Positions 12,995 through 18,203 of a stretch of DNA of 64,000 bases are shown here, one piece after another. Location: NCBI GenBank assembly GCA_945862325.1, contig CAMAXZ010000017.1, positions 1 to 64,000 on the forward strand, read 5' to 3'. The notes under the pieces were generated by a model, which did no database searches, was not told the origin of the DNA, and saw only the letters and a program-made list of their open reading frames with translations. Made by a program: the position numbers and the translations under genes. This stretch comes from Klebsiella pneumoniae (GTDB lineage: Bacteria; Myxococcota_A; UBA796; SXON01). Position 1 is the first letter of the stretch; every line of letters begins with the position of its first letter.

Positions 12995-13029
12995 GCGGCC
13001 CGGGCAACCGCCCGGGCCGCCTCGTTTTT
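12995..13029 (+). terminator. Rho-independent terminator after groESL1
   Basis: Perfect 11-bp stem GCGGCCCGGGC / GCCCGGGCCGC (loop AACC) followed by CTCG then TTTTT. Confidence 0.88.
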
Positions 13030-13050: not shown

Positions 13051-13842
13051 ATGCCCATCCGCGCCGAACGCCTCGACGATGTCCTGCTGTTGACGATCGA
13101 ACGTCCGGAGCGACGAAACGCCCTGGATCTCGACCTCTGGCACGCCCTGCGCGACGCGTGCGTGGGCGCGGACGGCGTGCGCGCGGTGGTGCTGACCGGG
13201 GCAGGCGGTCACTTCTGCGCCGGAATGGACCTGAACGCGGACAACCCGCTCGTGGCGCAGATCGCGCCGGCGGTGTTCGAGGGGCGCGAGGGTCCCGCCT
13301 ACGCCACCATCCGGGAGCTCAAGGAGTGTGTGGGGGCGCTCGCCGACGTGCAGGTCCCGACGTTCGCGGCCATCGAAGGGGCGTGCCTCGGCAGCGGCCT
13401 CGAGGTCGCGCTGGCCTGCGACGTGCGCATCGCCGCGAGAAACGCCACCATCGGCATCCCTGAGGTCGCGGTGGGCATGGTCCCCGACGTCGGCGGCTGC
13501 GCGCGCCTGACGCGCCTCGTCGGCCCCGGCCGCGCCGCGGACCTCATCGTCACCGGTCGGCGCATCGACGGCGACGAGGCGTATCGCCTCGGGGTGGTCG
13601 AGCGCGTGGTGGAGCCCGGCGAGGCCCTGAACGTGGCCCTGGCCGCGGCCAGGCAAGCGGCCGCAAACGCCCCGGTGGCCGTGCGCATGGCGCTGCGGGT
13701 CGTGCGCGTGGCGCCCGACCTGGGCCTCGACGAGGCGCTCTCGACCGAGACGCAAGCGGGGGTCGTCGCGCTGACCAGCGGCGAGCCCGCGGAGGGGCTC
13801 GCGGCGTTCGCCGAGCGACGCGCCCCGCGCTGGCCCGCATGA
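13051..13842 (+). CDS. Enoyl-CoA hydratase/isomerase family protein
   Basis: MPIRAERLDDVLLLTIERPERRNALDLDLWHAL...AVVLTGAGGHFCAGMDLNAD...GACLGSGLEVALACDVRIAARNATIGIPEVAVGMVPDVGG. Confidence 0.93.
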   Translation: MPIRAERLDDVLLLTIERPERRNALDLDLWHALRDACVGADGVRAVVLTGAGGHFCAGMDLNADNPLVAQIAPAVFEGREGPAYATIRELKECVGALADVQVPTFAAIEGACLGSGLEVALACDVRIAARNATIGIPEVAVGMVPDVGGCARLTRLVGPGRAADLIVTGRRIDGDEAYRLGVVERVVEPGEALNVALAAARQAAANAPVAVRMALRVVRVAPDLGLDEALSTETQAGVVALTSGEPAEGLAAFAERRAPRWPA

Positions 13843-15425
13843 GCGCCGCCCCCGCCGCGTCGACGGTCGCCGAGGCAGGCCGCCGCGCCGGCGACCTCCC
13901 GCGCTACGCCGCCGCGGCGCTGTCCGGCGTGGGGCTGGTGCTCGTGTCGCCCCCGGTGTCGGCCACGTGGCTCGAGTGGTTTCTGTTCGTGCCTTTCCTC
14001 GTCGTGCTCGACCCGGAGCGCCCACGGTTGAACTTCCGTGTCGGCTACCTCGCGGGGTTCGTCGCGATCTACGCAATTTTCTCATGGCTGATCGACACGA
14101 TTCACACCTTCGGCCAGCTGCCGGTGCCGGTCGCGATGGCCGTCCTCGCGCTGTTCGCCGCGGTGTGGGGCCTGCCGTACGGCGCGCTCGCGTGGGCGGC
14201 CCCGATGCTGCGGCGCCGCTTCGGCGGCTGGTGGGTGCTCGCGGTCCCGTCGTTCTGGGTCACGCTGGAGTACCTCCAGCCCGCGCTGTTCCCGTATTAC
14301 CTCGGCGGTTGTCAGTATCGCGCGCCGTGGGTCTGGCAGTCGGCGAGCGTGGTCGGGGCGCTCGGTCTGAGCTGGTTCGTGTTCCTGGTCAACACGACGC
14401 TCGCCGAGGCGGTGTTGGCCTTCCGCGAGGGCCGGCGGCCCCCCTGGGCGACGCTCGGCGTCGTCGCGTTCCTGTTCCTCGGGAACCTCGGCTACGGCGC
14501 ATGGCGACACGCCCACGTCGAGGCCGCGCTCGCCGAGGCGCCGGTGCTCAGGGTGGCGGTGCTGCAGCAGGGGGTGACGATGGTCACGCGCCTGAAGGAC
14601 CGCGGCTCCACGATCCTGAAGTCCTGGATCAAGCTGACGCAGGAGGCCGCCGCGAAGGACCCCGACCTCGTCGTCTGGCCGGAGGGCTCGATCTACTCGC
14701 GCGACCCCTCGAAGGGCGACTACGCCACGATCCTCGGCAAGCTGGCCAAGGCCGGCGACTTCCACCTCGTGCTCGGCGGCGGCACGCACGAGCCGGACCC
14801 GGTCGACGTCGAGAAGTTCCGCAGCTGGAACTCGGTCTACATGTTCCGGCCGGACGGCACGGTCGGCGGCCGGTACGACAAGATGGTGCCGCTGCCCTTC
14901 GGCGAGTACCTCCCCTTCCCCTTCGCCTTCCTGCGTCCGTACGTCGCGGGGATCGGCAACTTCCGCGCCGGCGACTCCCTGACCCAGTTCGAGGTCGACG
15001 GGCTCACGTTCTCCACGCCCATCTGCTACGAGGCGATCCTCGAGCGCCAGATGTTGCGCATGTCGGACGTCGACTTCTACGTGAACGTCACCAACGACGC
15101 CTGGTTCGGGGACACCGCCGCGCCGCACCAGCACGCCATGCTCTCGGCCGTGCACGCGATGGAGTTCGGACGGCCGATGTTGCGAATCGCGTACACGGGC
15201 GTGGGGATGGTCGTCGAGCCGCACGGCGAGATCCCGTACGAGACGAAGCCCTACACCGACGTGGCGGACGTGGTGCCCCTCCGCGTCGCGACCTTCGAAA
15301 CCCCCTACCGCACGTGGGGGCGCCTGTTCCCGCTGCTCGCCGCGCTCTCCGGCGCCGTGCTCGTCCTCGTCGCGTGGCGAGACGCCCGCAAGAACCCCGT
15401 CACATCCAAGGACGCCCCGTCGTAG
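13839..15425 (+). CDS. lnt: Apolipoprotein N-acyltransferase
   Basis: Multi-TM N-terminus, then nitrilase domain: DLVVWPEGSIY, YDKMVPLPFGEYLPFP, TPICYEAILE, NVTNDAWFGDTAAPHQHAMLSAVHAMEFGRPMLRIAYTG. ATGA overlap with the previous gene. Confidence 0.92.
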   Translation: MSAAPAASTVAEAGRRAGDLPRYAAAALSGVGLVLVSPPVSATWLEWFLFVPFLVVLDPERPRLNFRVGYLAGFVAIYAIFSWLIDTIHTFGQLPVPVAMAVLALFAAVWGLPYGALAWAAPMLRRRFGGWWVLAVPSFWVTLEYLQPALFPYYLGGCQYRAPWVWQSASVVGALGLSWFVFLVNTTLAEAVLAFREGRRPPWATLGVVAFLFLGNLGYGAWRHAHVEAALAEAPVLRVAVLQQGVTMVTRLKDRGSTILKSWIKLTQEAAAKDPDLVVWPEGSIYSRDPSKGDYATILGKLAKAGDFHLVLGGGTHEPDPVDVEKFRSWNSVYMFRPDGTVGGRYDKMVPLPFGEYLPFPFAFLRPYVAGIGNFRAGDSLTQFEVDGLTFSTPICYEAILERQMLRMSDVDFYVNVTNDAWFGDTAAPHQHAMLSAVHAMEFGRPMLRIAYTGVGMVVEPHGEIPYETKPYTDVADVVPLRVATFETPYRTWGRLFPLLAALSGAVLVLVAWRDARKNPVTSKDAPS

Positions 15426-15964
15426 TGAAGGCGATGGCTGCGGACGTGACCGCGTCCGACGAGGCGCTGATGGACAGGGTCAAGCAGGGCGAGCTCGCCG
15501 CGTTCGACGCGTTGTATGCCCGGTGGCAAGCGCCGATCTACGGCTACGCGCTCCGCATGACCCGTCAGGACGAAGCCGCCGACGACGTGTTCCAAGACAC
15601 GTTCCTCAAGCTCTACCGGGGCCGCGCCGCGTGGTCGTCCGGACACGGCACGTTCAAGAGCTGGATCTACCGCATCGCCACGAACGCCATGCGGGATCGC
15701 GTGCGCCGGGCCGCTCGGCGCCCGGAGGAGCCGGAGGTGGAGCGCGGCGCCCCCCCCGACGACGTACCGAGCCGCGTCACGTTGGAACGGGCGCTCGGCG
15801 CGCTGCCGGAGCCGATGCGCGAAGCCTTCCTGCTCGGCGCCGTTCACGGGCTCGACCACAACGAGCTCGCCGCCGCCCTCGACATCTCGCCCGAGAACGC
15901 GCGCGCCCGCGTCTCTCGCGCACGCGCGCGCCTGCGCGAGCTGTTGGGCGAGGTGGACGCGTGA
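15425..15964 (+). CDS. ECF-type RNA polymerase sigma factor
   Basis: DEALMDRVKQGELAAFDALYARWQAPIYGYALRMTRQDEAADDVFQDTFLKLYRGRAAW...FKSWIYRIATNAMRDRVRR... region 4 LPEPMREAFLLGAVHGLDHNELAAALDISPENARARVSRARARL. Start GTG 15425 (alternative ATG 15434). Confidence 0.9.
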   Translation: MKAMAADVTASDEALMDRVKQGELAAFDALYARWQAPIYGYALRMTRQDEAADDVFQDTFLKLYRGRAAWSSGHGTFKSWIYRIATNAMRDRVRRAARRPEEPEVERGAPPDDVPSRVTLERALGALPEPMREAFLLGAVHGLDHNELAAALDISPENARARVSRARARLRELLGEVDA

Positions 15965-16602
15965 CGCTCCTCGCGCCCGACGCCCTGCGCGCGCTCCGCG
16001 ACATCGAGCCGCCGGCCCGGCTCGTCGCGGAGACACGCGAACTCGTGCGCGACGCCGCCTTCGACGGAGGGTTCGCGGCCATGGCCGCGGTCGAGCCGCC
16101 AGGCGCCCTGGTGTCGCGCGTCGCCGACGCCGTGGCGCGTGAGGCCCGTCCGCGGCGGCCCGCAGCGTACGCCGCGCTCGGAGGCGCGTTGGCGCTCGCC
16201 GCCGCGGTCGTCCTGTCGATGCGCCCTCCGGCCACGGTCGTGGCGCCGGCCGGCAGCCTCGTCGAGCGCGGCGAGGGCGTACGCGCCCCCGAGATTTCGC
16301 TCGAGGTCGCGGTGGCGCCCGCGGGGGGCGGCGCTCCACGTCGCGCGTCCGCGTCGGACGCGGGCGCGGCAGGCGATGTCCTGGCGTTCGCCGTACGCTC
16401 TGACGTCGGCGGCGACGGCGTCCTCAGGCGCGACGGCGCGCTCGTGTGGGCCGGGCCCATCTCGGCGGGGCGGACGGAGGTCCCGGTCGCCTGGGGGCGC
16501 GAGCCGGGTGAAGGATCGGCTACCTTCGAGCTGACCGTGTCCACGGTCGACGCCACTTCCTCCGTTCGCTTCTCGGCGGCGCCGGTCCGCCAGGGTCCAT
16601 GA
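15961..16602 (+). CDS. Putative anti-sigma-like single-TM protein with C-terminal extracytoplasmic domain
   Basis: Directly overlaps the sigma gene (GTGA); ~60-aa helical N-terminus, TM AAYAALGGALALAAAVVLSM, C-terminal beta-rich segment DVLAFAVRSDVGGDGVLRRDGALVWAG. Confidence 0.6.
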   Translation: MTLLAPDALRALRDIEPPARLVAETRELVRDAAFDGGFAAMAAVEPPGALVSRVADAVAREARPRRPAAYAALGGALALAAAVVLSMRPPATVVAPAGSLVERGEGVRAPEISLEVAVAPAGGGAPRRASASDAGAAGDVLAFAVRSDVGGDGVLRRDGALVWAGPISAGRTEVPVAWGREPGEGSATFELTVSTVDATSSVRFSAAPVRQGP

Positions 16603-18203
16603 TGCTGCTCGCCCTCCTCCCCTTCGCCCACGCGGCCGCGCTTCCGGCGCCGAGCGGCGTCGTCGCGACGGCGCACGCCCCGCGCCGTGTCGCGGTGGTC
16701 GTCGGCGTGCAGGACTACGCCGACCCGGCGCTGCGCGGCCTGCGCTGGGCAGAGAAGGACGCGGCGGACGTCGCGCGGGTGCTCGGCAGCGCCGATGTGG
16801 GAGGGTTCTCCTCGGTCGAGGTCCTCAGCGGCGCGGCGCTCACGTCCCGCGAAGCGCTGTGGTCGGCCCTCCGGCGCGTCACCGACAGCCTCGGGCGCGA
16901 CGACACCTTCCTCCTGTACCTCTCGGGGCACGGCACGCTCACGCTCGACCCCACCGCGGGCACGCGCCTCTGGTTCCTGCCGTCCGACGGCCGGCTCGAC
17001 GCGCCCGAGTCCACCGGGGTGTCGATCGAGGAGCTCGAGGCGTGGGTCAACGAGCTCCCTGCGCGTCGCCGGGTGCTCGTCCTCGACACCTGCCACAACG
17101 GCCGCGTCGGCTCCAAGTCCTCGTTGACCGCGGCCACCACGACCCGGCTCGGGGAGCTCCGCGGCGAGCCCCCGTCACCGCGCCCGGGTCGCGAAGTCTC
17201 CGAGTCGGAAGCCCGGCTGTACGCCGCCCAGTACCACCAGCCCGCGATGGAGGACCCTGAGCTCCAGAACGGCGTGTACACCCACTTCCTGCTCGACGGG
17301 CTCACCGCGGGCCGCACGGTCGCGGATCTCGACCGCGACGGCCTGGTCGACGTGGCGGAGGCCCACGCGTACGCGCGCGACCGGACGATCGCCCGGACAG
17401 GCGGAGCGCAGGTACCCCGCGCCGAATACCGAATCGTCGGGCGCGAGGAGATCTACCTCTCCGGGCGGCCGGACAGCCGCTCGACCGCCGAGCGTGCCTT
17501 GGCGACGGCCTACGATGCCGTCCTGTCGCGCGCGCGCCTGCTGATCGACGGCACCCCGCGCGGCGAGCTGCCGGGTCTGTACGCCGTCGAGCCGGGCGTC
17601 CGCGACGTGGAGATCCGCGCGGCCGACGGCCGCACGGTCGTAAAGCGGAAGCACCGGTTCGTCGCCGGTAACATGACCGCGCTGGAGGACCTGCTGGCCG
17701 AGCGTCGGTCGTCCGTCGGCGTTGCCCTGGGCGTGAGCGCGACGGACGCCGAGGGTTGGGAGGGGTTCGCGCCGTCGTTGATGCTGACGGTGGCGCAGCC
17801 CGTGCGCACGTCTGGAAACCTTCGGTGGGACCTCCACCTCGCGGCGTCGGGCTTCGGTGCGGAGTGGGAGGCGACGCGCGGCTACGCCGGCGACGCCACG
17901 CTCGGCACGACCGTCGGCACCTACGCCGGGCCGATGTGGTTCGGCGCCACCGTGGGCGCGCGCGCGCCGTGGCGCTCCGCCCTGGCGGAGGCCACGACGA
18001 CGCCGGACCCGACCCCAAAGAACCTGCCACAGGCCTACCTCACCGGGTCGGCCGGGCTCGCGGCGGGCGCCGAGGTTCCGTTGGGGGCCGGCCGCGTCGT
18101 CACGTTCCGCCTCGACGGGTGGGGCACCCCGACGCAGTGGGACGGCCGCTGGGAGCTCTCCGCGGGCGGAGCCGCCCGCGTCGGTGTCGCCTTCCGCGAC
18201 TGA
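16599..18203 (+). CDS. Caspase-family (C14-like) protease with a C-terminal region resembling an outer-membrane beta-barrel
   Basis: RRVAVVVGVQDYADPALRGLRWAEKDAADVARVLG...DDTFLLYLSGHGTL (catalytic His), RRVLVLDTCHNGRVGSKS (catalytic Cys); signal peptide MMLLALLPFAHAAA. Confidence 0.85.
   Translation: MMLLALLPFAHAAALPAPSGVVATAHAPRRVAVVVGVQDYADPALRGLRWAEKDAADVARVLGSADVGGFSSVEVLSGAALTSREALWSALRRVTDSLGRDDTFLLYLSGHGTLTLDPTAGTRLWFLPSDGRLDAPESTGVSIEELEAWVNELPARRRVLVLDTCHNGRVGSKSSLTAATTTRLGELRGEPPSPRPGREVSESEARLYAAQYHQPAMEDPELQNGVYTHFLLDGLTAGRTVADLDRDGLVDVAEAHAYARDRTIARTGGAQVPRAEYRIVGREEIYLSGRPDSRSTAERALATAYDAVLSRARLLIDGTPRGELPGLYAVEPGVRDVEIRAADGRTVVKRKHRFVAGNMTALEDLLAERRSSVGVALGVSATDAEGWEGFAPSLMLTVAQPVRTSGNLRWDLHLAASGFGAEWEATRGYAGDATLGTTVGTYAGPMWFGATVGARAPWRSALAEATTTPDPTPKNLPQAYLTGSAGLAAGAEVPLGAGRVVTFRLDGWGTPTQWDGRWELSAGGAARVGVAFRD

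Follow-up and report, generated by a model that had tools for sequence, protein, structure and literature searches.

A conserved three-gene cassette of Myxococcota pairs an ECF sigma factor and a probable anti-sigma factor with a caspase-family protease

To our knowledge, natural substrates and roles have been assigned to only a minority of bacterial caspases. Here we describe a cassette that encodes an extracytoplasmic function (ECF) sigma factor, a probable membrane-bound anti-sigma factor and a caspase-family protease, located in a 64,000-nucleotide stretch of contig CAMAXZ010000017.1 (hereafter the window) that is placed in the lineage Myxococcota_A. The closest described loci are operons in which sigma-70 genes accompany four of the five metacaspases of Myxococcus xanthus, with further examples in Anaeromyxobacter, Haliangium, Sorangium, Ralstonia and Fibrobacter (PMC3501461, 2012). 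The operons of Myxococcus xanthus, Anaeromyxobacter, Haliangium and Sorangium, in which sigma factor and metacaspase occur together, very likely represent loci of the same type as ours, as judged from their published description and not from a sequence match. The linkage itself was thus already known, a correction to the first-pass annotation, which knew of no characterised system with this exact gene order; the operon section of the 2012 report names no anti-sigma factor, no barrel and no mechanism, whereas all three are proposed for the window trio. A literature search of partial coverage likewise found no description of an anti-sigma factor, an outer-membrane barrel or a cleavage site for such loci. 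What is new here is a near-invariant [R/K]-G in the periplasmic linker of the anti-sigma factor, paired with acidic S1 residues and a loop [R/K]-G in the caspase.

Several better-characterised systems resemble parts of this arrangement. In E. coli, DegS, RseA and RpoE combine an ECF sigma factor, an anti-sigma factor with one transmembrane helix, periplasmic site-1 cleavage (which we propose for the window trio) and a link to outer-membrane assembly (PMC8103513); DegS, however, is an inner-membrane serine protease with a PDZ domain, whereas the window protease has a caspase fold and its own predicted outer-membrane barrel and is encoded within the operon. A comparator with a caspase fold is the Csx29-Csx30-CASP-sigma system of type III-E CRISPR loci, whose CHAT protease cleaves an ECF sigma inhibitor (PMC10028731). 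That system is cytoplasmic, RNA-activated and CRISPR-linked, without a membrane anti-sigma factor or export, and membership was rejected for the window protease, which has no TPR or Cas domain and is predicted to be an exported barrel protein. The comparator chosen in the first-pass annotation, CalpL-CalpT-CalpS of type III CRISPR loci, is similar in that a protease, an anti-sigma factor and an ECF sigma factor are co-encoded, as in the window trio, but CalpL, which responds to cyclic tetra-adenylate (cA4), is a SAVED-Lon protease and not a caspase (PMC11417357). The window protease belongs to C14; with only C14 (and weak CHAT) matches found and no SAVED-Lon, membership of this system was also rejected. 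CHAT proteases have in addition been discussed as part of the gene context of group ECF54 (PMC8999054). Finally, metacaspases, orthocaspases and MALT1 share with the window protease the fold, the His/Cys dyad and acidic S1 residues, but the window caspase differs from them in its fusion to a predicted outer-membrane barrel and in being encoded beside a sigma/anti-sigma pair.

A three-gene unit that recurs across Myxococcota

The trio lies on the forward strand, its members joined by two 4-nt overlaps: GTGA, where the sigma stop codon meets the start of the middle gene, and ATGA, where the stop codon of the middle gene meets the caspase start.

15425..15964, + strand: ECF sigma factor gene, regions 2 and 4 (Pfam, TIGR02937)
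15961..16602, + strand: probable membrane-bound anti-sigma factor gene, 213 aa, zinc motif lost (alignments A1/A3, family profile, model)
16599..18203, + strand: gene for a 534-aa C14 protease of the caspase family, predicted to be exported and to end in a barrel (Pfam, NCBIfam, fold match)

These three genes and both overlaps had been called in the first-pass annotation, and all coordinates were confirmed. Its reading of the first product as an ECF sigma factor is borne out as well, in that this protein of about 180 residues matches both sigma-70 region 2 (Sigma70_r2, 2.7e-18) and region 4 (Sigma70_r4_2, 6.4e-12) in Pfam and exceeds the cut-off of TIGR02937 in NCBIfam.

A search of Myxococcota, which the same annotation had suggested, found the order of the trio conserved across family, class and phylum. 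Within the family, nearly all complete loci keep the order groEL-(enoyl-CoA hydratase)-lnt-sigma-middle-caspase, at identities of 51-57% for the caspases and only about 30% for the middle proteins. The shorter order sigma-anti-sigma-caspase is found at every orthologous locus of the family for which enough sequence is available. The next family of the same taxonomic order retains lnt-sigma-X-caspase, and cassettes further away have sigma-X-caspase without lnt. At the level of the class, a caspase of this profile is present in 52 of 71 genomes. Among non-redundant class caspases with a profile score >170, a same-strand sigma gene lies one gene upstream in 58 cases; in four others the contig ends too soon, and in two the available stretch contains no sigma gene. 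The more distant caspases provide an internal contrast, since nine of 13 are without a nearby sigma gene. A phylum-wide profile search with the middle protein gave matches in 105 of 189 genomes. About 60 of these places were examined, and at 53 non-redundant ones the caspase gene follows immediately, in most cases overlapping by 4 nt. The exceptions are L209, L221, L222 and L226, which have no caspase in the available stretch, and L216, in which the caspase lies one gene further on.

Overlaps of 4 nt are common in compact operons, and the three genes could conceivably be adjacent through shared operon ancestry with no functional link between them. Both overlaps (-4/-4) are present in 38 of 62 cassettes, a recurrence that exceeds chance. 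Against adjacency by ancestry, the trio recurs across the phylum in differing contexts, and it is absent as a block from one genome of the same family (G011; locus L292, G011:C169:24897-34405), where groEL, the enoyl-CoA hydratase gene and lnt are present and the sigma, anti-sigma and caspase genes are all missing at the site. Whether by loss or by original absence, it is the whole three-gene block that is lacking there. Adjacency by ancestry alone is therefore extremely unlikely, and the trio is a real unit that recurs across class and phylum, its anatomy and conservation being established with high confidence.

Two further loci were encountered during these searches. The window genome carries a second cassette of sigma factor, zinc-motif anti-sigma factor and caspase (L035, G000:C18:63478-65026), with the motif HLASCEAC and a VRTKG linker. 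Another locus of myxobacterial type (L060, CAMAWH010000062.1) comes from a metagenome bin deposited as Klebsiella pneumoniae, a record name that looks wrong.

The middle protein as a predicted anti-sigma factor

Taken alone, the middle protein has no matches in Pfam or NCBIfam, and a Foldseek search with it gave no match at E <=1e-3, only beta-sandwich look-alikes; evidence from its family was needed for its identity. The AlphaFold2 model comprises four N-terminal helices, a transmembrane helix (residues 68-86) and a seven-stranded domain (residues 112-206), in agreement with the shape noted earlier from the sequence, namely a short helical N-terminal region, one transmembrane segment and an extracytoplasmic domain.

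15976..16146, + strand: predicted cytoplasmic sigma-binding helices, residues 6-62 (AlphaFold2, four helices, pLDDT about 64-89)
16162..16218, + strand: single transmembrane helix, residues 68-86 (model helix; hydropathy maximum at residue 69)
16294..16578, + strand: predicted periplasmic beta-sandwich domain, residues 112-206 (model, pLDDT >90)

When a profile of the family (A3) was compared with all PDB sequences, the only matches at E <1 were RslA (0.0012; 3hug chain B, which we take to be this protein), DdvA (0.025; presumably from M. xanthus) and RsiW (0.099). All three are anti-sigma factors, and all three match over the N-terminal part, so that homology to sigma-binding N-terminal domains is detectable at the level of the family. 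HxxxCxxC occurs close to the N-terminus of several related middle proteins, and zf-HC2 exceeds its cut-off in the related cassettes L029 (3.6e-6) and L037 (2.6e-7). This zinc-binding anti-sigma (ZAS, zf-HC2) motif is missing from the window protein, as it is from most members of its family, but present in many related cassettes, and profile-profile comparison joins the window's family to the zinc-bearing members at 97.7%, mainly over the transmembrane helix and the beta domain. Model and hydropathy are both consistent with a membrane anti-sigma topology, with one transmembrane helix, the N-terminus presumably inside and the C-terminal domain outside. The middle protein is thus very probably an anti-sigma factor, with sigma binding predicted from its family relationships. 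In relatives the beta domain is weakly DUF4384-like, with a match in L022 (0.0016, under the cut-off); since only sub-threshold matches were obtained, membership of DUF4384 is not claimed.

The caspase, its predicted export and its predicted barrel

The third protein matches Peptidase_C14 (2.5e-10) and, weakly, CHAT in Pfam, as well as NF047832 in NCBIfam (8.5e-29, yet under the curated cut-off). Its first part resembles MALT1 (target TM score 0.75 when only the caspase domain is compared) as well as metacaspase 4 in Foldseek searches, and its C-terminal part resembles the eight-stranded barrels Ail, OmpX, NspA and OmpA (target TM scores 0.59-0.66).

16599..16637, + strand: short signal peptide, about residues 1-13, AHA/A end (sequence, orthologue N-termini)
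16683..17453, + strand: caspase catalytic domain, about residues 29-285 (Pfam, model, fold match)
16929..16931, + strand: catalytic His111, invariant in 115 caspases
17091..17093, + strand: catalytic Cys165 (LDTCHNG), invariant in 115 caspases
17160..17165, + strand: R188-G189, candidate site of autoprocessing in a loop of low confidence that follows p20 (all 29 sequences have G189)
17325..17360, + strand: EF-hand-like loop, D243-x-D-x-D-G-x-x-D-x-x-E254 (D243, D247 and E254 in nearly all 115 caspases)
17535..17660, + strand: small beta domain, residues 313-354 (model strands; no Pfam match; resemblance to PEGA by eye only)
17712..18197, + strand: eight-stranded barrel of outer-membrane type, residues 372-533 (model, exactly eight long strands)

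The dyad, signal peptide and C-terminal barrel had all been recognized in the first-pass annotation, and each is upheld by these comparisons. Together with the caspase fold, the His/Cys dyad places the protein in C14: all 115 caspases have H111 and C165, while 114 have D54 and 106 have D163. The two aspartates align with those of the metacaspase NDA and DxCH motifs, a pair that forms the acidic S1 pocket of Arg/Lys-specific metacaspases. The caspase therefore has the acidic S1 residues of these enzymes, and a specificity for Arg or Lys is predicted from them. Orthocaspases likewise cut after positively charged residues (PMC6426788). The EF-hand-like loop is a possible Ca2+ site.

Most caspase orthologues begin with a short hydrophobic segment ending in AxA, and many relatives end in ...GLGYRF or ...GVEVGF, as outer-membrane proteins do. 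Barrels of eight strands have both termini in the periplasm, so the caspase domain would face this compartment. Export and anchoring of the caspase in the outer membrane are, in our estimation, highly probable. In 11 cassettes of the class (L108, L110-L116, L119, L121 and L126), the caspase has a lipoprotein-like signal instead, and most of these proteins keep C-termini like those of outer-membrane proteins.

The presence of a barrel raises the question of whether the trio might signal from the cell surface without proteolysis, in the manner of FecA-FecR-FecI, which has the same three compartments (an outer-membrane barrel protein, an anti-sigma factor with one transmembrane helix and an ECF sigma factor). 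The barrel would then touch the beta domain of the anti-sigma factor, and the protease activity would serve something else. FecA, however, is a TonB-dependent receptor with a signalling domain, whereas the window barrel has eight strands, is attached to a protease and has no Plug or STN match in Pfam, on which grounds membership of this system was rejected. Such signalling would also leave unexplained why the dyad is kept in all members and the S1 acids in nearly all, and we consider it quite unlikely.

Caspase homologues are often tied to cell death, and the protein matches the generic caspase model of PADLOC (3e-9), which would accord with a sigma-controlled effector of programmed cell death or of phage defence; for M. 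xanthus, the 2012 report speculates on a role in autolysis (PMC3501461). The stable groEL-lnt synteny, the predicted export to the outer membrane and the lack of any other PADLOC match among the three proteins argue against such a role, making it highly unlikely.

A candidate cleavage bond and the alternatives

The first-pass annotation had suggested that the caspase might cleave the periplasmic part of the anti-sigma factor. The predicted topology permits this, as the caspase domain and the C-terminal domain of the anti-sigma factor would both be periplasmic, and a candidate bond can be named in the linker between the transmembrane helix and the beta domain.

16267..16272, + strand: R103-G104, periplasmic linker, proposed scissile bond (conservation)

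Among the 24 closest middle proteins, this linker is variable except for V101-x-R103-G104, in which all have G104, and R stands at position 103 in all but one, which has K. A basic residue aligns at position 103 in 61 of 62 class cassettes, followed in nearly all by G, S or A, and the usual form in the phylum set is R-x-K-G. An R/K-G occurs within <=40 residues after the transmembrane helix in 54 of 62 class proteins and 50 of 54 phylum proteins, as against 24.8 and 23.3 expected from shuffled linkers; with [RVIT] at P3 in addition, the counts are 42 and 45, as against 7.6 and 6.6. Caspases and metacaspases are processed in the loop between p20 and p10, and the loop of the window protein contains the R188-G189 listed above, with R or K at position 188 among the closest 37 members of the class and not among distant ones. 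In 35 of these 37 the loop and linker residues are the same (R/R 26, K/K 9), the remainder comprising two with R in the loop and K in the linker, and none with the reverse.

With the gene unit, the anti-sigma family, the topology, the active site, the barrel and the conserved R/K-G all supported by sequence comparison and structure prediction, we propose the following mechanism. The N-terminal helices of the anti-sigma factor would hold the sigma factor at the inner membrane while a flexible linker exposes its beta domain in the periplasm, and the caspase, after export, would be anchored in the outer membrane by its barrel with the catalytic domain in the periplasm. On disturbance of the envelope, the caspase would reach the linker and cut it after R103, a site-1 cleavage, whereupon a site-2 protease and cytoplasmic proteases would free the sigma factor, as in RseA. 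The genome encodes an M50 site-2 protease (PF02163, E 4.7e-57), the presence of which is not specific because all 14 control genomes have one. As a speculative trigger, failed delivery to the outer membrane might keep the caspase near the inner membrane. The earlier suggestion thus finds partial support, in the conserved trio, the anti-sigma family, the predicted export and barrel of the caspase, the topology and the candidate bond. That the trio is an envelope-signalling switch, with predicted sigma binding, a putative signal and the caspase as site-1 protease at R103-G104, we consider a nearly even call, if anything a little short of one. The broader proposal, that an outer-membrane-anchored caspase might be the dedicated site-1 protease throughout Myxococcota and sense its own failed delivery or another envelope fault, is rather doubtful.

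A number of observations weigh against this switch. The R/K-G lies 8-9 residues ahead of the first beta strand and could have a structural role, marking the start of the beta domain, and in L209 (L209:1480-4206) a sigma factor and a zinc anti-sigma factor with VRTKG are followed by the gene of a Ser/Thr protein kinase and not of a caspase. The caspase-loop R/K-G is confined to the closest part of the family, and the agreement between loop and linker, which lends support to cleavage, reflects few evolutionary changes and is only suggestive. Anti-sigma factors without a caspase formed a small control, with six usable, as there were too few zf-HC2 anti-sigma factors with one transmembrane helix. 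A caspase anchored in the outer membrane may also fail to reach a linker at the inner membrane unless something changes. Finally, no promoter was found for the window cassette, and the motif of the distant cassettes, described below, is absent from the window.

In the main rival reading, the caspase is an induced output: the sigma factor would autoregulate the operon, the outer-membrane caspase would degrade or process other envelope proteins, and a DegS-type protease would cut the anti-sigma factor. ECF operons are usually autoregulated and effector-bearing. In distant cassettes from a dozen genera, the sigma start is preceded, at a distance of about 20-40 bases, by GGTGACA-N14-CGGTGTT (among others in L207, L202, L177, L174, L169, L197, L191, L179 and L165, across many families), and the motif is also found ahead of exbB, tonB, a TonB-receptor-like gene and DUF2807 lipoprotein genes. 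These sites likely represent an ECF regulon that combines autoregulation with envelope genes in the distant cassettes, though not necessarily for the window cassette, and because the motif is common to sigma and envelope genes, the caspase would be co-induced with the latter. This evidence comes, however, from the distant cassettes, the window genome having 0 sites, and an induced output would leave unexplained the conserved linker R/K-G that fits the predicted specificity of the caspase. We regard it as possible, if somewhat unlikely. Classical ECF promoter patterns were not enriched upstream of the sigma genes.

A candidate substrate, bond and topology can now be named for a phylum-wide caspase family that, going by the operon section of the 2012 report, includes the tractable M. 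xanthus (PMC3501461). If the caspase does act as a site-1 protease, caspase proteolysis would serve as an envelope-sensing switch, a native regulatory role for bacterial caspases other than in death. It would also be a third independent form of protease control over ECF sigma factors, beside DegS/RseA and the CRISPR-linked systems, and a caspase-fold counterpart of the former.

The genes upstream of the trio lie on the same strand.

12995..13020, + strand: strong hairpin resembling a terminator, located after groEL and before the enoyl-CoA hydratase gene
13839..15425, + strand: lnt, apolipoprotein N-acyltransferase, directly 5′ of the sigma gene and syntenic (LNT_N 8.8e-24, CN_hydrolase 8.5e-21)

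No sigma-70 promoters or CIRCE were found near groES. The GTG start of the sigma gene shares 1 nt with the lnt stop codon, with an ATG at 15434 as an alternative start, and the hairpin after groEL suggests that the transcription unit runs enoyl-lnt-sigma-anti-sigma-caspase.

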